From Verrucomicrobiota bacterium (GTDB lineage Bacteria > Verrucomicrobiota > Kiritimatiellia > CAJWTS01): a DNA stretch of 64,000 nt. Location: the NCBI GenBank assembly GCA_027623315.1, contig JAQBYD010000003.1, forward strand, positions 62,001 to 126,000, written 5' to 3'. The notes below the pieces were generated by a model that had not been told where the DNA came from, did not search any database, and saw only the letters and a list, made by a program, of their open reading frames with translations. Position 1 is the first letter of the stretch; each line of letters opens with the position of its first letter. Below, one piece after another: positions 535 to 21,834 of this stretch. The position numbers and the translations under genes were made by a program.

Positions 535-1461
535 TCACACGGTACGGCGCACTTCAATATTTGAGTGCACGACGCCGAGTTCCTTCGGAATTTGATCGTG
601 GTATCTGCTCGCGCGCTCGGGATTCCGCGCGGTCACAGTCAGGGCGGCGGCATAGATCCCGGGCCCGATCGACCAGATATGAACATCGGTCAGAAGCGTG
701 TCCTCGGCCTTTTCAATCGCATCCCGGACGCCGTGTACCACGGATTCGGGTGCCTGGGCATCGAGGAGTATTCCACTGGTATCGCGCAGCAACTGCACGG
801 ACCAGCGGCCGACGAGCACGGCACCCACGACGCCCATCGCGGGGTCCATCCACCGCAGCCCGAAGTATTTTCCGGCGAGGAGGGCTCCAATCGCCAATAT
901 CGATGTCAGCGCGTCCGCCAGCACATGAAGATAGGCTGACCTCAGATTATGATCTTCGGGCTGAGCGTGGTGATGGTCGTCATGGTCGTGACCGTGGTGG
1001 TGCCCGTGATGATGTCCGTGATCGTCCTTCAGAATCACGACACAAACCCCGTTCACCAGCAGACCGACAACGGCCACCCACAGCGCGTGGTCAAAGTCGA
1101 TAGCGACCGGACGGAACATCCGCTGGATACTCTCGGCGACCATGATCAGGGCAAAGACGGCCAGCAGATTGGCTCCGGCAAACCCGGCCAACGCATTGAC
1201 TTTACCGGTCCCAAAGGTGTAGCGGCGATCGAAAGCATGCCGGCGGGCGTAGAAGTAGGCGAACGCGGTAATCGACAGCGCCGCCGCATGCGAGGCCATG
1301 TGCAAACCATCCGCAAGCAACGCCATGGACCCAAAGATGAATCCGGCTGCAATCTCGACGACCATCATGATCGCCGTAATCGCGATAACAACTAGCGTCC
1401 TGCGCTCGCCAGGCCGTACCTGCTCCTGCCCGAAACTATGGTCGTGTAATGATGTATGCAT
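535..1461 (-). CDS. dmeF: Cation diffusion facilitator, DmeF-type Co/Ni exporter
   Basis: This is an inner-membrane CDF antiporter of about 308 residues that moves divalent cations (Co2+/Ni2+ in characterised DmeF) from the cytoplasm to the periplasm. Visible features are the N-terminal MHTSLHDHSF stretch, the TM2 metal-site motif ADGLHMASHA (His/Asp), the FGTGK loop, a very His-rich loop (DDHGHHHGHHHGHDHDDHHH) between TM4 and TM5, and the TM5 motif HVLADALTS. This matches the DmeF subgroup rather than ZitB/CzcD. I chose the ATG at 1461 because GGTGA lies 7 nt upstream and the protein then starts like family members; a GTG at 1473 is possible. It lies downstream of a CzcA-type pump, so it probably feeds metal to the periplasm for tripartite export. 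Confidence 0.9.
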   Translation of the reverse strand: MHTSLHDHSFGQEQVRPGERRTLVVIAITAIMMVVEIAAGFIFGSMALLADGLHMASHAAALSITAFAYFYARRHAFDRRYTFGTGKVNALAGFAGANLLAVFALIMVAESIQRMFRPVAIDFDHALWVAVVGLLVNGVCVVILKDDHGHHHGHHHGHDHDDHHHAQPEDHNLRSAYLHVLADALTSILAIGALLAGKYFGLRWMDPAMGVVGAVLVGRWSVQLLRDTSGILLDAQAPESVVHGVRDAIEKAEDTLLTDVHIWSIGPGIYAAALTVTARNPERASRYHDQIPKELGVVHSNIEVRRTV

Positions 1462-1467
1462 GGTTGA

Positions 1468-1483
1468 ATTCACCGGCGTGAAT
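1468..1483. promoter_or_regulatory. Candidate operator dyad before dmeF
   Basis: The sequence ATTCACCGGCGTGAAT is a 6-bp inverted repeat (ATTCAC/GTGAAT) around CGGC. It lies just upstream of the preferred dmeF start and overlaps its ribosome-binding region. Position and symmetry fit an operator or a translational control site. No regulator gene is adjacent and no second copy was found, so this is only suggestive. Confidence 0.25.
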
Positions 1484-1656: not shown

Positions 1657-4600
1657 CTAACCCTCCCCGTTTTCACCATCCACCTCGTCCACAGGACCGG
1701 AAATCCATTGGTAAAGTACCGGCAACACGAGAAGCGTGAGAATCGTTGAGGTGATCACACCGCCGATGACTACGGTCGCGAGCGGACGCTGAACTTCGGA
1801 GCCCACGCCGGTGGAAAGGGCCATGGGCAGGAAGCCCACGGCATCGGTGACCGCGGTGGCGAGTACCGGCTTGAGGCGTTGGTGCGCGGCGCTGATGACG
1901 GCGTCGCCGATCGCCTGGCCGTCGCTGATGAAGCTTCGGATGGCCACAACCAGAATTTGCCCATTCAGCACGGCGATCCCGGAAAGCGCAATAAAACCGA
2001 CGGCGGCGCTGACACTGAAGGGAATTCCGCGCAGCCATAGCGCCGAGACTCCGCCTATAAGGGCGAAAGGTATTCCGGTGTAGATCAGCAGCACGTCGCG
2101 AAGATTCTTCATACTGAAGAACAGCAATAGAAACACGAGCAGAAGCGTGACGGGCACGACCAGCATAAGACGATGCTGGGCCCGCTCAAGATTCTCGAAT
2201 TGTCCGCCCCACTCGACGACGTAGCCGTCCGGCATGGGGACCTCCCGTTGAATGCGCGGCTTGACCTCCTCGATGAAGGAGCCGACATCCCGCCCGGTAA
2301 CATTACATTGCACCCGAATCAGTCGGCGTCCCCATTCGCGGTTGATTGTGGCGAGTCCGTCAGCGGTCTCGACCGTTGCCAAGGTGCGCAACGGAAATTT
2401 CCGACCCGTTTCGGTCGGGATGATCGTGTTGGCGAGCACGTTGGGATCCTGGCGATGCGTGTCCGGCAGTCGCGCGACCAGATCGAATCGGCGCTGCCCC
2501 TCGAACACCTCGCCCACGGTACGCCCGCCGACCGCCTCGACAAATTCCAGGACATGGCGCACAGATACCCCGTTTCGCGCGAGGGCCTGCTGATCCATGC
2601 GTACCTCGACGGTGGGTTGGCCTGTGAGCTGATCCACCGCGATGTCCGAGGCGCCGGGAATCTCGAGCAAAACGCGCTGAATACCGTCACTGATGCGCAC
2701 CAGTTCTTCGAAATCGTCCCCGTAGATCTTGATGCCTAGATCCGTGCGGATGCCTGAGATCATCTCGTTCATACGCATTTCAATCGGTTGGGTGAAAACC
2801 ATGTTGAGTCCCGGTAGATCGGAGATTTCTTCCTGTATGGCGGCCGCGAGCTCAACCTGGCTCCTGGCGCGGGTCCAGCTTTCGCGCGGCGTGAGGGAGA
2901 TGAAGATGTCGGTCAACTCCGTCCCCATCGGGTCGGTGGCGACTTCGGCGGTGCCGATCCGGCTCCAAACATGCCGAACTTCGTCGGGAAACTCACTCAA
3001 CAACAACTGTTCGATGCGCGTATTGTAGGCGGTCGACTGGTCAATGGAGATGCCGGCGATGCGGATGGTATTGATGACCAGGGCCCCTTCGCTGAGGCGC
3101 GGCAGGAATTCTGCTCCCAGGCGTGTCGCCTGCCATCCGGTCAGGACCAGAAGGACAACGACTGCCGTCAGGACCCACGTACGCGCCTTCATCGCGCAGG
3201 AAAGAAGAAAGGCATAGGCGCGCAGCAGCCCCCGTTCGACAAGTCCTTCCTTCGATTTCGGCCTTCGGGGAAGGAGGTAGTAGCTCAGTACGGGAGACAG
3301 TGTCAGCGCGATTATCAGTGCGCCCACCAGGGCGAAGACAAAAGTCCATGCCATCGGCTTGAACATCTTGCCTTCGATCCCTTCCAGGGCGAGCACCGGC
3401 AGGAAAACAATGAGAATGATGCCGATGCCGAAGGCGATGGGGCGGGCTACTTGCCGGCCTGACTCGATAATGGTCTGCAAGCGTTCGGCGCTGCTCAGCG
3501 GACGGCCAAGCTGTCGAGAGCGCTCCGTGAGATTGCGCAAGTTGGCCTCGGTCATCACCACCGAGCCGTCGATGATAATGCCGAAGTCGAGGGCCCCAAG
3601 GCTGAGGAGACTCGCGGCAATGGCAAATTCAAACATGCCCAATACCGCGAACAACATCGCCAGCGGGATCACAAGCGCCACGAGCAATCCAGCCCGCAAA
3701 TCGCCGAGTAGCAGAAACAGCGCGACGATCACCAGGAATGCTCCCAGATACAGGTTGTGCTTCACGGTGCCGATCACCGAGTCGGTCAACTCGGTTCGGT
3801 CATAGACAATATCGACGATAACATCCTCGGGCAGGGCGGGCCGGACCTGATCGAGCTGCGCCTTCAGACTCCCGGTGACGATCTGGGCGTTTTCTCCCAT
3901 GAGCATGAAGGCCAGCCCGAGCACCACTTCGCCTCGACCGTTGGCGGTCACGGCGCCGCGGCGGATCTCGTGGTCAATCTTCACCTCCTCAGCGATATCG
4001 TGAATATAGACCGGGCCACCGCTATAGGACGTCACGACAATGTTCTCGATCTGCTCGATAGTGGTCACGCGCCCCATGCCACGAACCATTTGCGACACGC
4101 CGCCTGCGGTGATGAGTCCGCCACCGACATTGTGATTGTTCTTATCGAGCGCGTCGTAAATCTCCTCGAGGGTCAGGTCAAACTTCAACAAGGCCTTGGG
4201 TGAGATCACGACATGGTACTGCCGGACCTCGCCTCCCCACGAATTCACCTCCGCGACGCCCGACACTTTGCGCAATTCGGGCTTGATCACCCAGTCATGC
4301 AGGGTGCGCAGCTCTTCCAGCGTTCGGTTCGGATTCTCCGAGCGCACCACGTAGTGGAAGATTTCACCCAGCCCGGTGGCGATGGGACCCAATTGCGGAC
4401 GTTCGATGCCGCCGGGCAGCTCCACCGCGTTGACGCGCTCGAAGACGTACTGGCGGGCGTCGGTAATGTCCGTGGCGTCGTCGAACGTGGCCACGACCTG
4501 CGAGAATCCAAATTTGGATACGGAGCGTACGTTCACCAGTCCCGGCAAACCGCCGATGGACAGCTCGACGGGGAGCGTGATTTGCTGCTCGATCTCTTCG

Positions 4601-4773
4601 GGATTAAGCGCGGCCGCTACCGTGTTGATCTGCACCTGAACGGGTGTCGTGTCGGGGAATGCGTCCACGGGCAGCGAGCTCAGCCTCCATAGTCCAAGCG
4701 CGCTGATCAAGACGAACAGCAGGAGTATGAGCAGTCGATTCTTCAGCGCGAAGTCGATAAGTCTGACAAGCAT
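1657..4773 (-). CDS. czcA: CzcA-type heavy-metal RND efflux pump (module 1)
   Basis: This is a proton-driven inner-membrane pump of the HME-RND family, about 1038 residues (family ~1040). It begins MLVRLIDFALKNR, the usual family start, with GGGAG 7 nt upstream of the ATG at 4773; an upstream in-frame start at 4803 lacks support. TM4 carries DFGIIIDGSVVMTE with D396, D402 and E409. This is the Asp-Asp-Glu proton relay pattern of CzcA (D402/D408/E415), not CusA. The CusA methionine triad is absent, because the matching positions read LVINT and TELTD, so divalent Zn/Co/Cd/Ni export is expected. Its adaptor gene lies 33 bp upstream and dmeF lies downstream. The module has no TolC gene of its own and presumably borrows one, for example from module 2. 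Confidence 0.92.
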   Translation of the reverse strand: MLVRLIDFALKNRLLILLLFVLISALGLWRLSSLPVDAFPDTTPVQVQINTVAAALNPEEIEQQITLPVELSIGGLPGLVNVRSVSKFGFSQVVATFDDATDITDARQYVFERVNAVELPGGIERPQLGPIATGLGEIFHYVVRSENPNRTLEELRTLHDWVIKPELRKVSGVAEVNSWGGEVRQYHVVISPKALLKFDLTLEEIYDALDKNNHNVGGGLITAGGVSQMVRGMGRVTTIEQIENIVVTSYSGGPVYIHDIAEEVKIDHEIRRGAVTANGRGEVVLGLAFMLMGENAQIVTGSLKAQLDQVRPALPEDVIVDIVYDRTELTDSVIGTVKHNLYLGAFLVIVALFLLLGDLRAGLLVALVIPLAMLFAVLGMFEFAIAASLLSLGALDFGIIIDGSVVMTEANLRNLTERSRQLGRPLSSAERLQTIIESGRQVARPIAFGIGIILIVFLPVLALEGIEGKMFKPMAWTFVFALVGALIIALTLSPVLSYYLLPRRPKSKEGLVERGLLRAYAFLLSCAMKARTWVLTAVVVLLVLTGWQATRLGAEFLPRLSEGALVINTIRIAGISIDQSTAYNTRIEQLLLSEFPDEVRHVWSRIGTAEVATDPMGTELTDIFISLTPRESWTRARSQVELAAAIQEEISDLPGLNMVFTQPIEMRMNEMISGIRTDLGIKIYGDDFEELVRISDGIQRVLLEIPGASDIAVDQLTGQPTVEVRMDQQALARNGVSVRHVLEFVEAVGGRTVGEVFEGQRRFDLVARLPDTHRQDPNVLANTIIPTETGRKFPLRTLATVETADGLATINREWGRRLIRVQCNVTGRDVGSFIEEVKPRIQREVPMPDGYVVEWGGQFENLERAQHRLMLVVPVTLLLVFLLLFFSMKNLRDVLLIYTGIPFALIGGVSALWLRGIPFSVSAAVGFIALSGIAVLNGQILVVAIRSFISDGQAIGDAVISAAHQRLKPVLATAVTDAVGFLPMALSTGVGSEVQRPLATVVIGGVITSTILTLLVLPVLYQWISGPVDEVDGENGEG

Positions 4774-4806
4774 CGAATGCTCCCTGGCTACGGCCCCAAG
4801 CAAGGT

Positions 4807-6396
4807 CTAGTCATCAACGCATCCCGCACCCAGCCGGGACTTCAGGAACTCCGACATAACGATGAAGCTACCGTCCGTGACCACGGGATCGTTGGGCGCG
4901 AGCCCGGCCATCACGACGGTGGTGTCACCGCTGGTCTCGCCGAGCGTGACGCGGCGCAGGGAGTACAGGTCAGGCTCGTTTTGCACGAAGACGAAAGCCC
5001 CGCCCTCGTGGCGTTGCACGGCCTCGCGTGGCACCATGGCCGCGGGCTGCACATCGCCGGTCAGGATGCGGGCGTCGCCGAACAGACCGGTCTTGATCAG
5101 ACCGGTCTCGTCCACCACCTCTGCTCGCGCGCGAACCATACGACTGCGTGGATCGACCGCGGTGTCAACCCAGGTAATGCGCCCCACGTAGGTCGCGCCG
5201 GGCAGCTCGGGGAACCGGGCTTCGACACGCTGCTCCAGGCGAATCTGGCCGATCTGGTCGGAAGGGATCGACAGCGCGAGCCAATGCGTTGACAGGTCGG
5301 CAATCGTAAAGAGCGGGTGCCCCATGTCAATGGCTTCACCGACGGCCGCGCTGCGCTCGATTAACGTTCCTGCGAACGGGGCCCGGATGTCGAGATCCGC
5401 CGAGGCCTCCTGCTTGTTCGCGATTCGAGCGAGTTCGTCTTCGGTCATTCCGAGATTGAGCAGCTTCTGCCGCAGGTTGCTCAGAGCCAGACTAGCGGTG
5501 CGATAGGCGGCTTCGGCGTCCAGAAACTCACTCTCGGTGGAGATCTCCTGCTCTTTGAGTCGTTTCTCCCGCTCAAAGGTCTGACGGCGGATATCGCGGT
5601 CGACGATGGCGGAAAGGTAATCGCTCTTGGCCGAGGCCACGTCGGCAGAGCGGAGAACCACGAGGACGTCCCCCCTTTCGACCTGATCGCCGATGTCGTG
5701 CCGGACCGCATGGACGATGCCGCCCGCCAACGGGGCGACCTTTGCCATCGCGTTCAGGTTGTACCGCACTTCACAGAAAGCCCTGATCGCCGGGGCGGCC
5801 TCCGCGAAACGAGGGCGTTCGGTTCGAAGACCGGCCTTGTCCGCGGATTGGAGAGAAGGGAGGCGGACCTGTAAATTGCCGCCGGGCGGCATCGAGGCCG
5901 CGAGCTCCGGTTGGCATATGCCACACTCGCGTTCCGGCACCCTGTGCTCATTGCAGTAAAGGCCGGCGGACCGGGCTCCCCCATCGCCTGGTTCGGCTGG
6001 ATCATTTCGGGCGGACTCTTTATCGGACTTGAGCTCCGGGTGACACAGGTGACACTCGTCCTCATACAGGGAATGTTCCTTACAGAAGAGGCGGCTCTTG
6101 TCCTCCAACTCGGAGTGGCATAGCCAGCATCGATCTTCGTAACGTCCGTGCTCTTTGCACCAGAGCCGGCCTTTATCCCGTTTGGACGGATCGCAGATAA
6201 AACAGGTCTCGTCGGCGCCGTCGTGCGTGTGGATTGCGTTGCCGGGGGTTGATTCCGCGGCGGCGATTTTTCCCGCTTTTTTCGCAGCGGCGTCGGGTTT
6301 CGACTTCCCGCAGCCACTTAGAAAAAGGGACGCGGATGCCAGAGCGCAGACTAGATAGATAGGGTGGCGTGATAGGTGTTTAGGCAGTGTTCTCAT
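4807..6396 (-). CDS. RND periplasmic adaptor lipoprotein with Cys/His zinc-knuckle-like repeats
   Basis: This is the membrane-fusion subunit linking the downstream CzcA pump to an outer-membrane channel, 529 residues. The N-terminus is a lipoprotein signal with lipobox LSGC (C29). Residues 58-161 hold 3.5 copies of C-x2-H-x6-C-x2-C, at 80-93, 105-118 and 148-161, plus a first copy at 58-68 lacking its leading Cys. Copies are followed by (H/Q)PEL or HSEL. After this come the usual barrel-sandwich/lipoyl half motifs (VAPLAGGIVHAV and IRAPFAGTLIERS), a helical hairpin between them, a beta-barrel (RFPELPGATYVGRI) and a membrane-proximal domain. The Cys/His segment is absent from CzcB and CusB and probably binds or senses metal in the periplasm. 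SD GGAGGAATG gives close spacing to the start. Confidence 0.88.
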   Translation of the reverse strand: MRTLPKHLSRHPIYLVCALASASLFLSGCGKSKPDAAAKKAGKIAAAESTPGNAIHTHDGADETCFICDPSKRDKGRLWCKEHGRYEDRCWLCHSELEDKSRLFCKEHSLYEDECHLCHPELKSDKESARNDPAEPGDGGARSAGLYCNEHRVPERECGICQPELAASMPPGGNLQVRLPSLQSADKAGLRTERPRFAEAAPAIRAFCEVRYNLNAMAKVAPLAGGIVHAVRHDIGDQVERGDVLVVLRSADVASAKSDYLSAIVDRDIRRQTFEREKRLKEQEISTESEFLDAEAAYRTASLALSNLRQKLLNLGMTEDELARIANKQEASADLDIRAPFAGTLIERSAAVGEAIDMGHPLFTIADLSTHWLALSIPSDQIGQIRLEQRVEARFPELPGATYVGRITWVDTAVDPRSRMVRARAEVVDETGLIKTGLFGDARILTGDVQPAAMVPREAVQRHEGGAFVFVQNEPDLYSLRRVTLGETSGDTTVVMAGLAPNDPVVTDGSFIVMSEFLKSRLGAGCVDD

Positions 6397-6560: not shown

Positions 6561-7001
6561 TCAAATGCGCAGAACGATCATTCGTCGCGCGACCAGAGAG
6601 GCAGACATCAGCAACGGTGCTTGGCGTGCGACGCACACTGCGTTCGCCCGGCCATCGCGAGCTACTCTATCATTCAGGCCGCCTGACTGCGATGTGTGGG
6701 GCAGATGGTTCTTAGCCGAAAGCGAGTGTCTCGCTCCGGACGACGAAAGCAACATAGCGTCCGATGAAAGCGGCACGTACACACAATCTCCGCCGCTGTC
6801 GATACAGGCGGCGGCACGCATGTCGCACTCGCCATGCTGTCGGTGATACGGGACCTCCTCAGAGTCCCGGCAGGTGCCGGCACACGCCATTTCCAACGCA
6901 ACATCACCATCGGCACAGATACAGATCCCCAGCCCCGAAACCGTTGTCCCCGCAAAGCAGAGCAACACCAGCCAAGAGATTAGACGGGGAAAGCGGTTCA
7001 T
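6561..7001 (-). CDS. Cys-rich exported protein heading RND module 1 (CxCADGDVALE family)
   Basis: I do not recognise a named family. The product is 146 residues with an N-terminal signal sequence (MNRFPRLISWLVLLCFAG), then GICICADGDVALEMAC, several spaced cysteines (CRDSEEVP, CDMRAAACIDSGGDC), the stretch VPLSSDA, and a C-terminus ending ARRMIVLRI. The gene at 14525-14959 is a clear paralogue: it is 144 residues, shares C-x-x-DG-x-(V/I)A-x-E, EVP, DCV and SSD, and ends QRTIVLRI. Both sit directly upstream of an RND efflux set, so a periplasmic metal-binding or sensing role is likely by context. The start at 7001 is well supported by AAGGAGA 8 nt upstream, and it overlaps the preceding small ORF by ATGA. 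Confidence 0.7.
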   Translation of the reverse strand: MNRFPRLISWLVLLCFAGTTVSGLGICICADGDVALEMACAGTCRDSEEVPYHRQHGECDMRAAACIDSGGDCVYVPLSSDAMLLSSSGARHSLSAKNHLPHTSQSGGLNDRVARDGRANAVCVARQAPLLMSASLVARRMIVLRI

Positions 7002-7177
7002 CGTGCATTCTCCTTCGACAGAAGCCCAGGCCCGGCTTCTGCTCCTGTGTCGCGTGCCAGGGAATAGAAGACGAGTTTCCATTTCTGTCGATTCTCGAGA
7101 AACCCCTCCGTCACCAATGTCCGAATGCTGTCACGGAACCGCTTGCCTGTCAACAGATTCATTGAACCGTCTTTCAT
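6998..7177 (-). CDS. Possible small winged-helix protein or regulator fragment
   Basis: This is a 59-residue ORF starting MKDGSMNLLTGKRF. The stretch RDSIRTLVTEGFLENRQK followed by WKLVFYSLARD looks like the recognition helix and beta-wing of an ArsR/MarR-type winged helix (compare HLKVLREAGLV...VYYRLA). It is too short for a complete regulator. Its stop overlaps the ATG of the Cys-rich gene (ATGA), and its own ATG overlaps the stop of another open stretch upstream (acidic frame, 7180-7350) that lacks a normal start codon. The pair could be a decayed or frameshifted regulator, or a leader reading frame. The similarity is judged by eye only. Confidence 0.33.
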   Translation of the reverse strand: MKDGSMNLLTGKRFRDSIRTLVTEGFLENRQKWKLVFYSLARDTGAEAGPGLLSKENAR

Positions 7178-7365: not shown

Positions 7366-8049
7366 CTACTCAAGTGCTCTGTGATCTTGCCGCAAGGCCT
7401 CCATTTCCTCCGACAGGATCTCACGCTCGCGCCGATAGCGCCTCTTCAGCCGGCTTATCCCCGTCGCGTGCAACTTTCGGGTCACATTCTGGATTTCCTG
7501 TTCGAGCTCTGCGATTCGCGCCTCCAACGCGCCCTTTTCTGCCGCGAGGACTTCGCGCCGCGCCGTGGCAATCTCGTTGGTCACGGGAACGTCCGGACGG
7601 GCTTCCTGGAGCTCGAGCCAGTAGGACAACCGCTGATCGGGCGACAACTTCTGAAGAGCAGAACTCTCTGTGCCTTCCGATCCGTCGTGAACGGCCTCTC
7701 TGATCCTTTCGTTCAATTGCCCTTTTCTGGACGCCTGCCGTGCCACCGCCTCGTGGCGCATCCGCTCCTCTTCTTCTCTCATTTCCTCTACGCCACGTAG
7801 CCTGATCAACGAGACGACCCCATTCGCAAAATCAACGGATCCTCTCTCGTAAAAGAGCGTTTCGCTCTCGCCCGTCACCATTTGGCCTCGCGGCTTTCCG
7901 AGCTGTTGAATGACCTGCGCCTTGCTCTCACCAAGCCTGACCGTCTCTGTCGCCAAGCCCACGCTCAACGTCGCGCAGAACGCCACTGCGACGAATCGAA
8001 ACCATGTTCGAGGATTTCTAGTCGTCTCGAGTCTGAATCCGTTCATCAT
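7366..8049 (-). CDS. Exported BamE/SmpA-like plus coiled-coil protein of unknown function
   Basis: The product is about 227 residues. An N-terminal signal sequence (FVAVAFCATLSVGLA) precedes a short domain VRLGESKAQVIQQLGKPRG...ETLFYERGSVDFANGVV. That pattern (G-x-S-x-x-x-V-x-x-x-LGKP, then a beta strand and a FxNGxV turn) is typical of SmpA/OmlA/BamE-type folds. The rest is strongly charged alpha-helix, with long coiled-coil stretches at about residues 85-115 and 165-227. It is the last gene of RND module 2, directly after the PII-like gene. GGAGGAG abuts an ATGATG, so the exact start (8049 or 8046) is uncertain. The function is unknown; a role in outer-membrane assembly or periplasmic scaffolding is only a guess. 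Confidence 0.65.
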   Translation of the reverse strand: MMNGFRLETTRNPRTWFRFVAVAFCATLSVGLATETVRLGESKAQVIQQLGKPRGQMVTGESETLFYERGSVDFANGVVSLIRLRGVEEMREEEERMRHEAVARQASRKGQLNERIREAVHDGSEGTESSALQKLSPDQRLSYWLELQEARPDVPVTNEIATARREVLAAEKGALEARIAELEQEIQNVTRKLHATGISRLKRRYRREREILSEEMEALRQDHRALE

Positions 8050-8091: not shown

Positions 8092-8436
8092 TCACCACAC
8101 CGCCGCGTCACCGCGGTCCCCGGTTTGGATGCGCAGGGCATCCTCCACCGGAGAGACATACACCTTGCCGTTGTCCGGCAGCCCCGTGTGGGCTTTCTCC
8201 CTGATCGTTTCCAAGATCTCCTCAACTCGTGACGCCGGGCAGACGATCTCCATCCGCACAGATTTCGGGAACCCGTGGAATGGGGTGTGATCGGAATGCT
8301 GCGAGTGCTCGCGCGATCCACTGCCGATGCGCTGCACCTCCGAGATACTTGCGCCCGGAAAGCCTTCGATTTCATGCAGAGCGAAGATGACATCGTCCAG
8401 CATGTTCGGCTTTATGAATGCAACAATACATTTCAT
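8092..8436 (-). CDS. Divergent PII-family protein associated with metal RND efflux (PII-NG type)
   Basis: This 114-residue protein has the PII/GlnB frame: it begins MKCIVAFIKPNMLDDV, continues with an SEVQRIGSGS strand-turn, and ends VYVSPVEDALRIQTGDRGDA like the C-terminal PII signature. The T-loop differs from GlnB/GlnK: it is His/Ser-rich (GSREHSQHSDHTPFHGFP) and lacks the uridylylated Tyr51 and its context. A divergent PII group (PII-NG) is known to be encoded beside heavy-metal RND genes. It lies 16 bp after the stop of the CzcA-like gene in the same direction, with a GGAAGG site upstream. It is more likely to act on the pump or sense ligand or metal than to regulate nitrogen. Confidence 0.82.
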   Translation of the reverse strand: MKCIVAFIKPNMLDDVIFALHEIEGFPGASISEVQRIGSGSREHSQHSDHTPFHGFPKSVRMEIVCPASRVEEILETIREKAHTGLPDNGKVYVSPVEDALRIQTGDRGDAAVW

Positions 8437-11573: not shown

Positions 11574-12944
11574 TCAATGACCGTGTCCGGCATGGGAGCC
11601 GAGATTACTTGTGATGACAGTGGCCTTGAGCTGGAACGCCCCGTTCGAAACGTACTTCATTCCCGGCTCCAGTCCGGCCGTCACCTCGACGTTCACGCGA
11701 TCACCCCGTCCGAGCGTCACAGACGTCATCTCGAACCCGCCCTTACGCTCCACAAAGACGACGTCACGGCCCTCAATGTTCTGTACGGCATTGCGTGGAA
11801 TCACCACTGCCAGGTTCTCCTCGGCAGTACTGCAGAATCCCGTCACAAAGGTGCCGGGCATCCAGCGGCCATCACGGTTATCCAGAACCACCCGGGCCGT
11901 CGCGGATCGCGTCGATTCCTCGACGAAAGGCGTCACCATGGCGACCACACCGCGTGCTTGCACCCCGCTGTGATCAACCCGCAACGTCACGTCCTGGTGT
12001 GGACGCACGGCATCCAGGTTCTTGGTGTACACAGTCAGATTCACCCACACACTGCTCGTGTCGACCACCGTGAAGATGTCCGTGTCCGCCTCCAGGCCCT
12101 CGCCCAGCGAGATGTGCTTCGCTGTTATGACTCCAGCTTGGGGCGATCGGATCTCGTATCGCGCAATGGCCTCGTCAGGCTCGGTGTCCAGCGTCTCAAT
12201 CACCTGCTCAGAGAGCCCTAGTGCGTGCAGTTTCTGATCTGCCGACCGCAACGCAATCCGCGCCTCTGCGAGCACCTGTTGCGCCTCTAAGAAGTCCTGT
12301 TCGGATGACACCTGCTTTTCGCGTAGCGCCGTCTCCCGTGCGAAGGTCTTCTCCGCCAATACCCCGCGGGCCTTTGCGGCGAGGTACTCCGACTTTGCGT
12401 CGGCCAGTTCCCGACTCTCGATGACGGCCACGATTTCGCCAGCCTCTACGAGGTCGCCCACGCTCTTGTGGACCTCACGGGCGACTCCGGCCACGCGCGG
12501 AACCATATGCACAACAAGATCCTCGTTGAACACGACCTCGCCCGGCAGGCTGACTTCATTCCGCAGACTGCCCGGCCCGGCAGGCCGCACGGCAATCCCG
12601 AAACGCTTCCGTTGCTCCGGCGTCAGCCGGAGCCCGCTCCCTTCATCCGCCTGTTCGGCGTGGCCTGCCCGCCCGCTTGCGGAGCTTGCGGCGTGGTCGT
12701 GGCCGGAATGGTCTTCCTCCCCGGATTCCTCATTATGCTCGGTGTGGCCCTTGCCCTCATGTTCTGCGTCCGCGTCGTCCGCATGGGCGTCGTCACTTTC
12801 CGCATGGGCGGCGTGGTCGTGCCCTGCGTGACTGTCCTGCGCATGCGACTCCGCCGCTACGCCGACGCCCCACATCAGGGCCAGCCCCGGCACGGCCAGT
12901 AAGCTCAGTCTCTTGTTCAGCAAATCCCGAATCGGTTTCATCAT
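11574..12944 (-). CDS. czcB: RND periplasmic adaptor with His/Asp-rich N-terminal domain (module 2)
   Basis: This CzcB/CusB-like membrane-fusion protein has about 456 residues. A signal sequence (LAVPGLALMWGVGVAAES) is followed by about 70 residues rich in His, Asp and Glu (SHAGHDHAAHAESDDAHADD, later EEDHSGHDH), probably a loose metal-binding tail. The conserved core follows: MVPRVAGVAREVHKSVGD (barrel-sandwich), a helical hairpin, IRSPQAGVITAKH, and a C-terminal domain ending SHAGHGH. The start at 12944 follows the TolC stop by one base, with AAGGAT about 6 nt upstream. It connects the downstream pump with the upstream-encoded TolC. Confidence 0.9.
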   Translation of the reverse strand: MMKPIRDLLNKRLSLLAVPGLALMWGVGVAAESHAQDSHAGHDHAAHAESDDAHADDADAEHEGKGHTEHNEESGEEDHSGHDHAASSASGRAGHAEQADEGSGLRLTPEQRKRFGIAVRPAGPGSLRNEVSLPGEVVFNEDLVVHMVPRVAGVAREVHKSVGDLVEAGEIVAVIESRELADAKSEYLAAKARGVLAEKTFARETALREKQVSSEQDFLEAQQVLAEARIALRSADQKLHALGLSEQVIETLDTEPDEAIARYEIRSPQAGVITAKHISLGEGLEADTDIFTVVDTSSVWVNLTVYTKNLDAVRPHQDVTLRVDHSGVQARGVVAMVTPFVEESTRSATARVVLDNRDGRWMPGTFVTGFCSTAEENLAVVIPRNAVQNIEGRDVVFVERKGGFEMTSVTLGRGDRVNVEVTAGLEPGMKYVSNGAFQLKATVITSNLGSHAGHGH

Positions 12945-12945
12945 T

Positions 12946-14355
12946 CTAATCCTTCTTTTTTCCATTCATCAGTACTTCAATACTTGTGCCCGTAATCCCT
13001 TGGATATCGGCCAACGCGGTGTGATAGTCGCTCAATGCGTCCACCAGCGCGCCCTTGGCCTGGAATAGCCCCCGCTGGGCGTCGAGCATATCCAGGAATC
13101 CGAACTTTCCCTGTTGGTATCCCTCGTGAGCCGCCGCGAAGGCCTGCTCCATGGCGGGAACCACCTTCCCTCGCAGGGCTTCCACGCGCTGGTAGGATGT
13201 CGTGAGTCCCGCGTGGATCTCCGCCAGTTCGGCAGCCAGGGCTAACTCCGCAGCCGACCGTTCCGCTTCCGCCTTCGAGAGCCCGTACGCGGCGGCGGCA
13301 ATGTTGCCCTGGTTTCGATCGAAGAGGGGCAACGGCAGGCCGACACCCAACGCCAGCGAATCTGTCCCGTCCTCCTCAAAGCTCTGAAACCCGATGGCGG
13401 CCGTCACATCCGGCACCCTAGCCGATTTCTCCAACGACAACGCGGACCGGCGCATTCGGATTTCCGCATCCCATCGTGCAAGATCCGGGTTCAACGCGAG
13501 GCGGGAACGCAGGGCGGTCATCGAAGGAACCGGGCCAAGCACACCGTCCAAATGGCCTTCGACGTTCGAGAACTCTGCCCGCTCACCCCCCCACATCGCT
13601 GCGAGTTTCCTACGGGCAACACGCAGCACGTTGTTGGCCTCGAACAAGTCCATGCGCACCATCTCCAGCTCGGCCTCACTCTTTGACGCCTGGAGAGGGG
13701 GCTCCTTGCCTGCCTTCACTCGTTCCCTCACGGCACGACTCGTCTTCTCCGCGAGCTGCACTGCCGCTCCTGCCAACTCGAACCGCTGCTGGGCCACGAT
13801 CACGGCCGTGAAGCGTCGCGCCGTCTCGGTGAAGACGTCGAGCCGCTTGCTCTCATAGTCCCAGCCGGCCAACTCGCCTTCTGCTTCGGCAACCCGTGTT
13901 CGCCAATGCCGCTTGCCTCCAAGCTCGAAGAGTTGGCCGAGAGTCACAGACGTCTCGGCGGCGTCGAGGCCTTTGCCGTCGCGGTCGTACTCATCCAGCC
14001 CGAACTCAAGTTCAGGGTTCGGTAGCGCCCGAGCCTGTAGCAATCGAGCTTCGACGGCCCGCAGATTGTGCGAAAACGCCGCAAGCGACGGGTTGCGAAG
14101 CAATGCCGCTCCCAACGCCTGTTCCAGCTTCAATGTGCCGGTCGGCGCGGCCGGTTGTTCGTCAGGATTCATCTCGTGTGCCTCAAAGCCGGCGGTCGGA
14201 TAATGCGCCCCTAAAGGGCGCGCCTCCGGGAGCGCCATATGCCGGCCGGCCGGCCGGCCGGCTTGCGAAGCTTGCGGCCGGGTGGCGGCGCACCCCGTGA
14301 TGAGCAGGCTTGCGGAACCTCCCAATACTGCATTCAGTAAGACTCTTCTTATCAT
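12946..14355 (-). CDS. czcC: TolC-family outer-membrane efflux lipoprotein (module 2)
   Basis: This is the outer-membrane channel of the module 2 tripartite pump, about 469 residues from ATG 14355. The start gives a clean lipoprotein signal (MIRRVLLNAVLGGSASLLITGC) and has GGAG 6 nt upstream; longer in-frame starts (TTG at 14397, ATG at 14373) fit worse. The protein shows the two OEP repeats typical of TolC/CusC, with long alpha-helical stretches and NPSLAAFSHNLRAVEARLLQ and NPDLARWDAEIRMRRSALSL at equivalent places of the two halves. It is probably shared with module 1, which lacks its own channel. Confidence 0.9.
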   Translation of the reverse strand: MIRRVLLNAVLGGSASLLITGCAATRPQASQAGRPAGRHMALPEARPLGAHYPTAGFEAHEMNPDEQPAAPTGTLKLEQALGAALLRNPSLAAFSHNLRAVEARLLQARALPNPELEFGLDEYDRDGKGLDAAETSVTLGQLFELGGKRHWRTRVAEAEGELAGWDYESKRLDVFTETARRFTAVIVAQQRFELAGAAVQLAEKTSRAVRERVKAGKEPPLQASKSEAELEMVRMDLFEANNVLRVARRKLAAMWGGERAEFSNVEGHLDGVLGPVPSMTALRSRLALNPDLARWDAEIRMRRSALSLEKSARVPDVTAAIGFQSFEEDGTDSLALGVGLPLPLFDRNQGNIAAAAYGLSKAEAERSAAELALAAELAEIHAGLTTSYQRVEALRGKVVPAMEQAFAAAHEGYQQGKFGFLDMLDAQRGLFQAKGALVDALSDYHTALADIQGITGTSIEVLMNGKKKD

Positions 14356-14524: not shown

Positions 14525-14959
14525 TCAGATACGCAGGACGATCGTCCGTTGCGCGAGAAGGGCATAAGCCGGACCCGGCGGCGCCCCATGTGCGAGCCGC
14601 TGGGTCTTTCGGCAGTCCGCGAAGGCCAACGCCGCAGGACCAGTCGTCAAATCTCTCGAACCCGCGTGTTTCAGTAAGCGATCGTGTCGCACATCCTTCG
14701 TGAAGCGCAACGCTTTGTCCGACGAAATTGAAACATCTACGCAGTCGCCCGCCACGGTCTCCGCGATTCGCGTGATGCAACCCGATCCCCCGGTTGGGAC
14801 TTCGCCCGGATAACTGCATGGCTCACGGTGAACGACCTCAATCGCGATATGCCCATCATCGCCGAGGCACAGCACCATGCCCGAAACACCGGACACCGTC
14901 ATGGCGATGGCGATCAGACAAACCGTTGCTATCTTGGCCCTTTTCAACACAGATATCAT
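14525..14959 (-). CDS. Cys-rich exported protein heading RND module 2 (CLGDDGHIAIE family)
   Basis: This 144-residue paralogue of the gene at 6561-7001 begins with a signal sequence (MISVLKRAKIATVCLIAIAM). It continues with MVLCLGDDGHIAIEVVH, EPCSYPGEVP, a Cys-x-x-Arg, GDCVDVSISSD, and ends PAYALLAQRTIVLRI. I recall uncharacterised proteins with a similar C-x-G-x-DGH-x-A-x-E motif near metal efflux genes, but no function. An in-frame ATG at 15070 has GGGGAG upstream and overlaps the cusA stop, but it would add 37 unlikely residues. The start at 14959 matches the paralogue's length and signal position. Context suggests periplasmic metal binding. Confidence 0.7.
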   Translation of the reverse strand: MISVLKRAKIATVCLIAIAMTVSGVSGMVLCLGDDGHIAIEVVHREPCSYPGEVPTGGSGCITRIAETVAGDCVDVSISSDKALRFTKDVRHDRLLKHAGSRDLTTGPAALAFADCRKTQRLAHGAPPGPAYALLAQRTIVLRI

Positions 14960-14975
14960 TGAGATTGAGGACAAT

Positions 14976-15003
14976 AGCATAGAGCGGGGCCGCTGTAAAT
15001 CAA
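14976..15003 (-). promoter_or_regulatory. Candidate promoter with palindromic spacer before module 2
   Basis: On the minus strand, TTGATT (14998-15003) and TATGCT (14976-14981) are 16 bp apart. The spacer holds the dyad AGCGG-CC-CCGCT (14983-14994). A palindrome inside the spacer resembles how MerR-type activators sit, but the spacing is short for that class and no such regulator is encoded nearby. The implied transcription start is about 10 bp before the ATG at 14959. Confidence 0.3.
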
Positions 15004-15069
15004 AACGCGAGAGCTTCCGAACTGCGCTCGACGTCCCCCCGCAGGCCGGCTCCCGGGTCGCAGGCGTCA

Positions 15070-18000
15070 TCACTCTCCCCTGCGAGCGAGCCGGAACTCC
15101 TCGACCCAGCAGTACAGAACGGGCACGACGAAGATGGTGATGAGGACGACGGTCATGCCGCCGAACGAAGGGATCGCCATGGGCAGCATGACGTCGCTAC
15201 CGCGGCCGGTTGAAGTCAGAATCGGGATCAAAGCCAGAAGCGTCGTCGCCACCGTCATCAGGCAGGGCCTGACCCGCCGTTCCCCGGCCATGATGATCGC
15301 CTCCCGCACTTCGCCTGCTGACGTGGGCTTGCGGTCACGCATGATCTGAGCGATGTATGTCGACATGATGACCCCATCGTCCGTGGCGATGCCGAACAAC
15401 GCAAGGAAGCCCACCCACACCGCCACGCTCATGTTGATCGTGTGGACCTGAAACAGGACGCGCATCGACACACCGAACACAGAGAAGTCCAGGAACCAGG
15501 GCTGACCATAGAGCCAGATCATCAGGAAACCGCCGGACCATGCGACAAAAATACCGGAGAACACCAGCAGCGTCGTGGGTACGGATTTGAACTGGAAGTA
15601 TATCAGCAGGAAGATCACGAACAGCGCGATAGGCAAAATCAGCGCGAGCGTCCTGGCCGCACGCACCTGATTTTCGTAATTGCCCGCGAACGTATAGCTG
15701 ACGCCGCGCGGGAGCGTGAATTCGCCGCTGTCGATCTTCGACTGCAGATACGCCTGGCATTCTTCCACCACATCGACCTCGGCGAATCCAGCCTTCATGT
15801 CGAAGACGATGTAGCCGATCAGGAAGGTGTCTTCGCTCTTGATCACCTGCGGACCGCGGATGTAGCGAATGTGCGCCAGTTCGGTAATCGGGATCTGCGT
15901 CCCTCCCGAACCGCTTACGTAGATTTGCTCCATGGCCTCGATGCTGTCGCGCAGTTCGCGCTGGTAACGCACCCGCACGGGATATCGCTCGCGTCCTTCC
16001 ACGGTTGTCGTGGTCTTGCGGCCACCGATGGCAATCTCGACCACATCCTGGAATTGGCGAATCAGCACGCCGTAGCGCGCCAGTGCGACCCGGTCCGGTA
16101 CGATCTCCAGGTACGGCTTGCCCACGATGCGATCGGCGATAACGGCCGCCGGCTGCACACTGGGTACTTCCTTCAGGAAACGCTCGATCTGCAACCCGAC
16201 GGTTTCGATCGTTTCCAGATCGGGTCCCTTGACCTTCACGCCCATGGGCGCCCGCATGCCGCTAGCCAGCATGACGATGCGCGCGGCAATCGGTTGCAGT
16301 TTGGGCGCTGAAGTTGAGCCCGGCATCTTGGCCGCCTTCACGATCTCGTCCCAGATATCGTCGGGCGTGCGGATATGATCGCGCCACTGCCGGTATGGAC
16401 GTCCGGAGTCATCCGGGATGAGCTCACCGAACTCATCGCGCTGAAATTCGCCCTTCTTGCGGTCATAGCGGAAATTAACGCGATGGCCTTTCCGGTCCGT
16501 AATGAACTCCGGCTTGTAGTTGATGACGGTTTCGACCATCGAAATGGGGGCGGGGTCAAGGGGTGTCTCGGCGCGTCCGATCTTTCCGACCGCCGATTCG
16601 ATCTCGGGAATGGCTTCAAACGCCATATCCTGTTTAGACAGCATATCGATCGCCTCGCCAATGGACGCATGTGTCATGGTCGTGGGCATGAAGAGATACG
16701 AGCCCTCGTCCAGCGGGGGCATGAACTCCTTGCCAAAACCGGGGAACGTATGCGCCAGGGCCGAGACCGGCCCGGAGGCGCGAACGCGTTCGGGCAACCA
16801 GCCCATCGTACGATCGAACCCCAGCCATGCGGTCAGTCCGAATAGGACCAGCGTCGCAGGCACCGCGAGAAAAAGCGCCTTGTGGACCAGGCACCACGCC
16901 AGGAGTCGCGCGTAGAAGTGCTGGAACAGCTTGAAGAATCCAAGCAATCCGCCGATCAAGACAGCGACGAAGATTAAATTCCTGAGCAGCCCTAGCTCCA
17001 GTCCGAGCGGCTCCCAGTCCTTCGTCAGAAGAACGGCGACTACCAATACGGCCAAACCGCTGGCCGCTAAAGGTGCCCAGCGCGAAAAGCGCTCGGGTAT
17101 GCGATCCTGAAGCATGAAATAGATCCCGAAAACCGCCAGCGCCAGTCCCGCCCACCAGGCGACCATGGCACCGAGGACGACGCCCACGGCGATGATCGCA
17201 ATGTTCAGCAAGGAACGCCACCGACCCGGGCGAATCTTTCCGCAGAAGAGAAGCTGTGCGGCGGGAGGCAGAACGGTGAGCGCGATGAGAATGGACGCGA
17301 TCAGCGCAAACGACTTGGTGTAAGCCAGCGGCTTGAACAGTTTCCCTTCAGCCCCGAGCATAGTGAACACGGGAAGGAAGCTGACCACCGTTGTGGCAAC
17401 CGCGGTTAGGACTGCACCACCAACTTCGCTCGCTGCTCGATGCACAATTTCCAGGGGTGATTCACCCGGTTCGGCCTCATCCAAATGGCGCAATATGTTT
17501 TCGCAGATGACGACACCCATATCCACGATGGTTCCTATCGCAATGGCGATTCCGGAGAGAGCCACGATGTTGGCCTGTACACCAAAGAGCTTCATTCCGA
17601 CAAAACAGAGCAGCACGGAGAGCGGCAACATGCCGCTGATGATGATACTGCTGCGCAGGTGCATCACCATGATCAACACGACGATGATCGTGACCAGGAT
17701 CTCCTGCCCGATCGCTTCGTTGAGGGTGCCCAAGGTTTCATAGATCAGCCCCGTCCGATCGTAGAACGCCACAACCGTAACTTTGCTGGTGGTTACCCAG
17801 GCAGGCCATTCGTCTCGCGGCACGGAGCGTAGCCAGCCCAGCCATGCATCATGGTTAAGGACCGGTCCCTCAAAGGCCTCGAACCCATTCTTCAGCGCGA
17901 AGGCTTCCACATCCGGCCGCGAGGTCAACGCAAAATCGACCACCGCTTTGGTGGGCAGCGCTTCCCTCGTCTCCTCAATCTTCTTCTTAACGTTGTTGAT

Positions 18001-19510: not shown

Positions 19511-19537
19511 TTCCCCTACCACCTACCCCCCAACACC
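19511..19537. repeat. CTACCACCTACC repeat, right flank of four-helix-bundle gene
   Basis: The plus strand reads CCCCTACCACCTACC followed by CCCCAACACC, an imperfect inverted counterpart of the repeat at 18969-19004. It encodes the last codons and stop of cusB (LGGRW) on the minus strand. Confidence 0.55.
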
Positions 19538-21834
19538 TCCCGAATCTCGCCGCACCCCAACATGGCTTCCCCGAAATAGGGATTGCGTGTGTCCTTATCG
19601 TTCTGAATCCAGGTTGCGCCTTCCCCGCCGAGGGCCATCGGGCACTTGAACTGGTACAGCGGCCCCGACGGTGCTCCGAACCGCTTGGCTGCTGCCATTA
19701 TCTGCTCCGACAGCGGCGCCAAGGCCACGCGGCTTGCGGACAGGGCATCCGCCTGCGCCACCTTGGAAATCATGCTCTTCAAAGCATCCGCCTGCGCCAT
19801 CCAGGCCATGTGGTCACCGCCGGTCAGCAAGGTCATGTCTACGGAGGAGAGCGCGGCAAGCGCATCCCTGGCGTTAGCCGTCGCCTTGGCGAAATCGTCC
19901 GCGGCGAGAGCGCCCTGAAGTTCGATATAGCCGTTCACGACTCCCCCGAACTGTGCGAGAAACTCCGGGTTGACTGTGGAATTCGGTTCGACGTGGCGTC
20001 CGTGAGCCGGGTCCATCTTCCTGCGCATCGAGGCGGCATGCCCACGCAGGGCTTCGGCGAGGTGCTTCGCGCCGGTAAGCGTCTCGATGGTACTGCCTTC
20101 CAGCCCGTCGTTCCCCAGGAGCATGGCGTATTCCTTCCACAGCAGTGCCAAATGGCCGCTCATTTCCTCAACGGTAACGGCCTCGACACGATCGCTCAGC
20201 GCAGCGAAAGCGGCATGAATGTCCTTGAGATCCCCGCTTCCCACCGAATCGTCCGCCGCCTGTGTCGCGGACAGCACATCGTGCAACTGGCTCTGCGTCA
20301 ATGCGGACAGCGTCATGCCCGTCATGCCACTTTGATCTTCCGGATTATTCCCCATGGCTGGCTTCGAACCACCGTGGTCGTGTCCACCGCCACCGCCGCC
20401 ACCCTCCGGGGTCATCATGCTTGGCTTCGCGTAGATCTGCAGCTCGGCATCGAGCTTGAAGGCGCCTTTTGTAACCACCCGTTCGCCTTCGCTCAGACCG
20501 CGTCGAACGAGGTAGTAATGCCCCGCACGCGGTCCCAGAACGATCTCGCGGCCCTCAAACACGCCTGGCCTGTCCGGCGACATCACGTAAACGATGGCGC
20601 GTCTGCCGGTGATCAGCGCCGCTGACACGGGGATCACGAGTGGAGCTTCCTCGCTGTCGCCGAGCACGTACCCCAATGATTCAGCGCTGACGAGGGGCAT
20701 TCCGCAAATATCGCAGTCGCCAGGTGCGCTCTTAACAATCTCCGGATGCATGGGACTGATCCATTTGCCGGCGAGCTCTGAGGAGAACACCCTGCCCCCC
20801 GTCGAAATGTTGGCGCGCACGGTGGCGCGCACAAACATACCCGGTTTGAGATCTCCGGACCGGTTATCCACATTCACGCGCACCTTCACCGTGCGGGTCT
20901 TCTCGTTCAGAACAGGGTCGATGAACGCAATGGTTCCGCGAAAGGTTCGCCCCGGATAGGATTCGGTCTCGAACTCCATGTCTTGACCATAGCGAATCCA
21001 GGAGAGATCCGACTCGTACGCGTCGAGCTTGACCCACACTTGCGACAGATCAGCAATCGTGTAGATGCGCGTTCCCGTAGTCACGTACCCTCCCTCAAGC
21101 GCATTCTTGTGGATGACAATTCCGCTGATTGGGGAGTAGATCGTGAGGTGATCATCCGGTGTGCCACGCTTTTCGATTCCCTTGATCTGTTCTTCCGTGA
21201 GCCCCCACAGCCGAAGTTTCTCACGTGAGGAGACCACGGTGTCTGCGGTGCGATCTTTAACGAGGGGACTGTCGCTGCCCTTCAGGCTCTCGACCGTCTT
21301 AACGGCTTGAATCAACTCTTCCTGCGCGGCCAGCAGTTCCGGGCTGTATATGGAGACCATGTGATCGCCCTTCTTAACTTCCACGCCGGTATAGTCCACG
21401 TAGAGCCGATCCAGTCGGCCAGGCACCCACGCCGTCAGATAGGCCAGCTTGGTCTCGTCGTAGTCTACTTTTCCGACCATTCGGATTTCAGCAGTGGCGA
21501 AACGTCGCTCGACAGGCGACGTTTCGACGTCGGCAAGCGCCTGCGCGGTCCGCGAAAGCTTCAGTTCACGCAGGCTCATCGGAGCGTCATCCGCCTCATG
21601 CGAGGCCATTACCGGGATCAGATTCATCCCGCACTTCGGGCACTTGCCCGGTTCCGGGAGCTGGATTTCCGGATGCATGGAACACGTCCAGAACTTGACT
21701 TTGGCCTCCTGGTCGCCGGCGTGCCTCGATTCGATGTCGGCGGAGCGGTGCCCGGAGCAACCGCGCCCGATGATGCTGCCGATCAGCAGCGCGGCTGCGA
21801 CAATCATGATCATCTTCTTCTTGTTTACCTTCAT
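19516..21834 (-). CDS. cusB: CusB-type RND adaptor with two heavy-metal-binding domains and DUF3347
   Basis: The adaptor has 772 residues, about twice a simple CusB. In order: an N-terminal membrane anchor or signal (residues 8-25); a heavy-metal-binding domain (C51, M53, H54, C65, C68, M70); the adaptor core with hairpin (about 95-345); a second metal-binding domain inserted at about 356-381 (MHPEI, C374, C377); a C-terminal beta domain to ~465; a Gly/His linker (GGGGHDHGG); and a DUF3347-like helical region from ~510 to the end, with the family signature FKCPMALGGEGATW and RNPYFGEAMLGCGE. It passes Cu/Ag to CusA. The ATG overlaps the tolC stop (ATGA), so translation is coupled. Confidence 0.92.
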   Translation of the reverse strand: MKVNKKKMIMIVAAALLIGSIIGRGCSGHRSADIESRHAGDQEAKVKFWTCSMHPEIQLPEPGKCPKCGMNLIPVMASHEADDAPMSLRELKLSRTAQALADVETSPVERRFATAEIRMVGKVDYDETKLAYLTAWVPGRLDRLYVDYTGVEVKKGDHMVSIYSPELLAAQEELIQAVKTVESLKGSDSPLVKDRTADTVVSSREKLRLWGLTEEQIKGIEKRGTPDDHLTIYSPISGIVIHKNALEGGYVTTGTRIYTIADLSQVWVKLDAYESDLSWIRYGQDMEFETESYPGRTFRGTIAFIDPVLNEKTRTVKVRVNVDNRSGDLKPGMFVRATVRANISTGGRVFSSELAGKWISPMHPEIVKSAPGDCDICGMPLVSAESLGYVLGDSEEAPLVIPVSAALITGRRAIVYVMSPDRPGVFEGREIVLGPRAGHYYLVRRGLSEGERVVTKGAFKLDAELQIYAKPSMMTPEGGGGGGGHDHGGSKPAMGNNPEDQSGMTGMTLSALTQSQLHDVLSATQAADDSVGSGDLKDIHAAFAALSDRVEAVTVEEMSGHLALLWKEYAMLLGNDGLEGSTIETLTGAKHLAEALRGHAASMRRKMDPAHGRHVEPNSTVNPEFLAQFGGVVNGYIELQGALAADDFAKATANARDALAALSSVDMTLLTGGDHMAWMAQADALKSMISKVAQADALSASRVALAPLSEQIMAAAKRFGAPSGPLYQFKCPMALGGEGATWIQNDKDTRNPYFGEAMLGCGEIREVLGGRW

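Follow-up and report, generated by a model that had tools for sequence, protein, structure and literature searches.

Tandem Cys/His units on an RND adaptor of a Verrucomicrobiota bacterium: a candidate metal capture module for Zn/Cd-class efflux

The window, i.e. the whole 64,000-nucleotide stretch of DNA analysed here, carries an RND periplasmic adaptor gene of 529 amino acids (P0001; 4807..6396, minus strand). Its parts, the partner pump and the other transporter and adaptor genes located below all lie on the same strand. The N-terminus holds the lipobox L-S-G-C29 (6310..6321), a predicted lipid attachment site whose cysteine is aligned in the relatives. It is followed by a head site, H56-x-H58-x6-C65-x2-C68 (6193..6231), and by three units of the pattern C-x2-H-x6-C-x2-C: unit A, C80-x2-H83-x6-C90-x2-C93 (CKEHGRYEDRCWLC; 6118..6159), unit B, C105-x2-H108-x6-C115-x2-C118 (CKEHSLYEDECHLC; 6043..6084), and unit C, C148-x2-H151-x6-C158-x2-C161 (CNEHRVPERECGIC; 5914..5955). 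Unit C adjoins the adaptor core (HlyD_D23, residues 202-439; 5080..5793), which is CzcB/ZneB/CusB-like by profile and structure matches. The protein ends in the tail G523-A-G-C526 (4819..4830), identified by sequence comparison as a constant companion of the units. The partner pump, a member of the CusA/CzcA family of RND pumps containing LGALDFGIIIDGSVVMTEA, is encoded at 1657..4803 (TIGR00914, 1152 bits, cut-off 701). A CDF-like transporter with a His-rich loop (535..1473) adjoins the module, its family being read from the translation and not from a profile scan. A scan of window positions 1-24000 against Rfam gave no match, and an upstream scan for promoters and terminators found none.

P0001 is an adaptor of the HME-RND type by fold and context. 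Its core scores 145.8 bits against HlyD_D23 (1.4e-42; cut-off 30) and 149.3 bits against RND_mfp (TIGR01730; cut-off 94.9), its fold matches ZneB (best), AcrA and MexA, and an RND pump is encoded with it, the two features that define an RND periplasmic adaptor. The score stays below the cut-offs of the more specific families, with 154.9 bits vs 319.3 for CzcB/NccB (TIGR00999) and 49.7 bits vs 390 for CusB (NF007303 / PRK09783).

The surrounding region (1-23240) is a metal island that directly adjoins ribosomal-protein and RNA polymerase genes. It comprises the CDF-like transporter, a P-II-like protein (8092-8436) and three CusA/CzcA pumps, each complete or partial. The three adjacent pumps come with three different adaptor N-terminal modules: the Cys/His units of P0001, a His-rich N-terminus in the adaptor of the second pump (11574..12965), and an HMBD N-terminus (PF19335) in the adaptor of the third (19516..21834), the latter two being free of units. 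A pair of small, mutually related secreted proteins that contain Cys motifs is encoded here, one directly upstream of the first adaptor (6561-7007) and the other directly upstream of the third pump (14525-15073). The former has no Pfam family, and a similar, IAVLCFGKDHIAVE-like protein precedes the TolC gene on a plasmid of Phycisphaera mikurensis (L261:2276-2668). A secreted coiled-coil protein of 227 amino acids is encoded between the modules of the first two pumps (7366-8049), with no family above cut-off.

Our analysis shows that the Cys/His units of P0001 are real and under selection. The strict pattern is present at residues 80-93, 105-118 and 148-161, exactly as the preliminary description had it, and a six-frame translation of the whole window contains it three times, each time in P0001. 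Among 200,000 shuffles of residues 30-200 a single match arose in 296 and two matches never. At the DNA level the pattern occurs six times in the whole 3.9-Mb genome, three of these in the P0001 gene, and a reversed-pattern control occurs seven times. P0001 was further compared, by codon and by residue, with four relatives (L003, L004 from the isolate Pelagicoccus sp. SDUM812005, L166 and L005). Changed residues amount to 14-22% in the units, 27-53% in the core and 62-77% in the linkers, so that the units are conserved two to three times better than the adaptor core. All 16 candidate ligand positions are the same in the four relatives as in P0001, and the codons at these positions carry 5, 7, 8 and 10 silent changes, respectively. 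Across 30 sampled units the only invariant columns are C, H, C and C. In a variant of the form C-x1-H-x6-C-x2-C the histidine is replaced by cysteine (L174, CECGIPIYQCAEC), a swap as expected for a metal site.

The idea that the first unit (H58...C65-x2-C68) has degenerated and lost its leading cysteine is not supported by our data, as it overlooks H56. Nearly all relatives of the same type carry a head segment H-x-H-x5/6-C-x2-C and then D-[PA]-x-[KL]-R; the spacing is x5 in many of them and x6 in P0001. Since H56 is conserved together with H58, the head site keeps a candidate four-ligand set (H56, H58, C65, C68). Moreover, a complete C-x2-H-x6-C-x2-C unit occupies the same position in several relatives (L034, L037, L038, L039 and L043), and decay can thus be ruled out. 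There are two exceptions, L029 with a glutamate in place of the second cysteine of CxxC and L028 with both histidines replaced. Judged by its conservation, the head site is a variant in its own right and no relic.

The units fall into distinct types in a constant order, namely head, A, B, linker and C, followed by the adaptor core. Consensus sequences are GRLWCxEHxRYEDRCWxC for the A type, RxxCxEHxLYEDECxLC for the B type and LFCNEHGVPExECGIC for the C type; head, A and B are spaced in steps of 25 residues. Adaptors with five, seven or nine units contain two or three copies of the head-A-B block ahead of the last C. The C type is the one retained in single-unit adaptors, as in L045-L047, which carry it alone on adaptors of P0001's own class. 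A second dialect, DWCxEHGVPESxCxxCxP in steps of about 28 residues, is found in Planctomycetota and Myxococcota. The repeat region has no matching entry in Pfam, NCBIfam or the PDB, and known zinc-finger families give no significant sequence or structure match to the units (B-box 0.21, CxC6 0.04-0.4, far below cut-off). In a metal-free AlphaFold2 model of low global confidence (pTM only 0.34) the units reach a pLDDT of about 70-78, and each shows the same short two-strand/turn pattern at medium to low confidence. A fold search with this repeat model returned six matches, none with E < 5, and solved zinc proteins were not matched. Text searches of the open, non-subscription literature found no description of the motif, nor was it found in the text of PMC7726332. 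The repeat module lies outside every curated family searched, while adaptor-borne metal-binding modules as a kind are already known.

On other adaptors the repeat is found in one to nine copies, all on CzcB-like adaptors, in Verrucomicrobiota/Kiritimatiellota, Planctomycetota and Myxococcota. Whole genomes were scanned with a unit profile, which matched 14 of 289 genomes in the window's own phylum, 49 of 246 in the phylum of a planctomycete record (L007) and 20 of 141 in that of a Kofleriaceae record (L029, Myxococcota). Chance probably explains some of the lowest-scoring matches among the 14, which fall in short open frames devoid of a unit. Phage records yielded no unit. Two near-identical unit adaptors come from records titled Acidimicrobiia (L011) and Phycisphaerae (L013), and the L011 contig is probably mis-binned. 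An adaptor-core homologue is encoded on 734 of 72,556 plasmids, and only two of these, both planctomycete, have units. This agrees with the original remark that the motif is absent from CzcB and CusB, for a tblastn search that is poorly sensitive to a single unit and with the homologues judged en bloc. Pseudomonadota are represented by plasmids only.

Our first sample was biased, with unit peptides serving as search anchors, and adaptors were therefore also chosen by unit-free core homology. This core-chosen sample of about 90 adaptors contains 30 with strict units and eight with the variant C-x1-[H/C]-x6-C-x2-C. On the core tree, 30 strict-unit adaptors and one further member with its units lost fall into a single supported group, and the variant adaptors form a second group together with L204. 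Among the top 30 adaptors of P0001's phylum, units are present on the nine whose cores are closest to P0001; the remainder have His-rich or HMBD modules, the C-x1-H/C variant or no module.

The C-terminal tail follows the units closely. A G-x-G-C ending occurs in 38 of 38 unit or variant adaptors of the core-homology sample (36 in the form G-A/S-G-C) vs 0 of 52 others; His-rich adaptors mostly end in HxH or similar. The tree shows only two or three separations of units from GxGC, with two independent pairs on supported branches. With so few separations, common descent alone may account for the correlation. A unit-clade adaptor that has lost its units (L201, G315) has an in-frame TGA at the first Cys codon of its GAGC tail (GGG-TGA-TGC), which may be a point mutation, an assembly error or selenocysteine.

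The pairing with one class of pump is strict. All 61 unit-adaptor pairs with a readable motif have DFGxxxD in TM4 of the pump. Five more pumps are truncated or broken, and their best match is still the first pump of the window. Within the CzcA family we take this Asp/Asp/Glu motif to be the mark of Zn/Co/Cd(Ni)-type pumps. All classifiable partner pumps thus belong to a single class, whatever the number of repeats. The unit cluster of plasmid pK2D_1 also contains genes annotated as cadA and czcD.

Many clusters additionally encode separate small two-unit proteins, immediately upstream of the adaptor or closely downstream of the pump, and wherever the N-terminus is readable it contains a lipobox (e.g. 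the K2D protein, QDV81065.1, MEWLMS...LSGCSSS). The adaptors of such loci carry a median of 2 units vs 3 in loci without a separate unit protein (Mann-Whitney p=0.007, n=53, kinship ignored). On plasmid pPSMK1 of Phycisphaera mikurensis a separate His-rich small lipoprotein (L261:9242-9472) is encoded downstream of a pump with a His-rich adaptor, in parallel to the adaptor/carrier pairing seen for the Cys/His units.

Taken together, the units, each of which presents three cysteines and a histidine in a combination common in zinc sites, very probably bind metal. We read them as an adaptor-fused metal capture and delivery module for Zn/Cd-class efflux, to which we give a probability of roughly 0.6. 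The preliminary description had suggested that a set of identical sites on a periplasmic lipoprotein might capture metal. Capture is the reading best supported by the invariant ligands, the free linkers, the His-to-Cys swap, the single pump class and the separate lipoproteins; the sites themselves are near-identical, not identical.

The units could instead be structural zinc fingers, in which a metal serves folding only and the domain acts in docking or as a spacer for the pump or the outer-membrane channel without any hand-over. This would fit the strict spacing and the set order of A, B and C types, and the conserved non-ligand residues (Y-E-D-R/E, W/H between the cysteines, P after them) resemble interaction surfaces more than metal sponges. 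It is nevertheless unlikely, given that the copy number is free to vary from 1 to 9, that versions exist as separate lipoproteins, that sister adaptors have His-rich or HMBD modules at the same place and that the unit is confined to metal pumps. A periplasmic metal sensor or valve, where filling of the sites alters the conformation of the adaptor and turns the pump on, appears less probable still: carriage is the better explanation for the separate lipoprotein copies, and adaptors with a single unit exist. Such a valve has its precedents in ZneB and CusB, which change shape on metal binding, and in the activation of CusA by CusB (PMC4446572), and near-identical graded sites could report saturation, a role for which the sites had also been proposed.

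Two metal-site-free or heme-based explanations carry far less weight. In the oxidising periplasm the cysteines might be joined as disulphides or act as a CxxC redox pair without binding metal, which would suit their location and the thioredoxin-like gene in the pK2D_1 cluster. We consider it very unlikely, as each unit has three cysteines, an odd number that cannot be satisfied by disulphides within the unit, and as the histidine is invariant, or swapped to cysteine in one variant. Finally, C90-W-L-C93-H94 and C115-H-L-C118-H119 could be read as CxxCH sites for c-type heme, with a histidine after two of P0001's three units, and heme repeats of about 25 residues do exist. The leading C-x2-H is, however, foreign to heme motifs, no cytochrome family scores above its curated cut-off, and the variable residue after CxxC makes heme c most unlikely: in the relatives it is Q 43/H 7 in A units, N 24/D 13/H 9/R 3 in B units and Q 30/H 2/D 1 in C units.

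Under the metal capture and delivery reading, the N-terminal third of the adaptor would be flexible and consist of small metal-binding beads on a string. Each of these beads would fold around one divalent thiophilic metal through its C-x2-H and C-x2-C half-sites; judging from the pump class and the neighbouring genes, this metal would most likely be Zn2+, and also Cd2+. P0001 would have three full beads plus a fourth site of the HxH/CxxC type. The string, anchored in the membrane through the lipidated Cys29, would capture metal in the periplasm and pass it on via the bead nearest to the core and probably the GAGC cysteine. The recipient would be the Zn/Co/Cd-type CzcA-like pump, by which the metal would be exported. 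The separate small unit lipoproteins of other genomes would be CusF-like chaperones. The occurrence of the Cys/His bead both on adaptors and on separate lipoproteins of the same clusters suggests that metal is collected for the pump.

To our knowledge, it is unclear by which route periplasmic metal reaches RND pumps of the Zn/Cd/Co type and whether a CusF-like carrier for them exists. A recurring Cys3His bead that is adaptor-borne as well as separate and comes with a matching Cys tail offers a concrete and easily testable candidate for such a carrier, and the natural series of 1 to 9 beads lends itself to a dose test, in which resistance would be compared across bead numbers.

By its core fold and the class of its partner pump, P0001 resembles adaptors of the CzcB/ZneB type. 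The best match among solved sequences is ZneB (3lnn, 5.6e-24), in which, unlike in P0001, no Cys/His repeat appears. B-box-like zinc-finger families resemble the units in ligand order (Cys, His, Cys, Cys) and have a similar spacing. HMBD (PF19335) shares with the units the N-terminal place on an adaptor and a short Cys/His motif ending in CxxC, but it follows the pattern [CY]xMHP...CxxC and belongs to another adaptor clade; its profile finds no match in P0001 and matches the third adaptor of the window. Adaptors that present or relay metal have precedents in the CusB N-terminus with CusF, in SilB and in ZneB (PMC4446572, PMC6235853). The carrier domain of SilB from Cupriavidus metallidurans exists both in fusion with an adaptor and as a stand-alone protein (PMC4446572); unlike the units of P0001, however, it is C-terminal, has the CusF fold and serves Cu/Ag. 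P0001, the 148-aa neighbour and two stand-alone unit proteins all gave no match to the CusF/SilB carrier domain.

We here define a CHCC-repeat adaptor group by one or more C-x2-H-x6-C-x2-C units N-terminal to the core, a GxGC tail and a DFGxxxD pump, and P0001 shows all of these traits. Tentatively, and with somewhat less than even confidence, we propose that the 25-residue Cys3His bead could represent an uncatalogued carrier family, which in RND efflux of the Zn/Cd class would be the thiolate counterpart of CusF and would exist as adaptor-fused tandem arrays and as separate lipoproteins, with the GxGC cysteine completing the relay to the pump. CusF itself is a small beta-barrel that uses Met/Trp for Cu(I)/Ag(I). 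As in the case of the CusB N-terminal region and CusF, an N-terminal metal module on the adaptor would be combined with a separate carrier encoded in the same cluster; in contrast to CusF, the module would be a Cys3His unit of 25 residues on pumps of the Zn/Co/Cd type, and hence analogous to it but unrelated.
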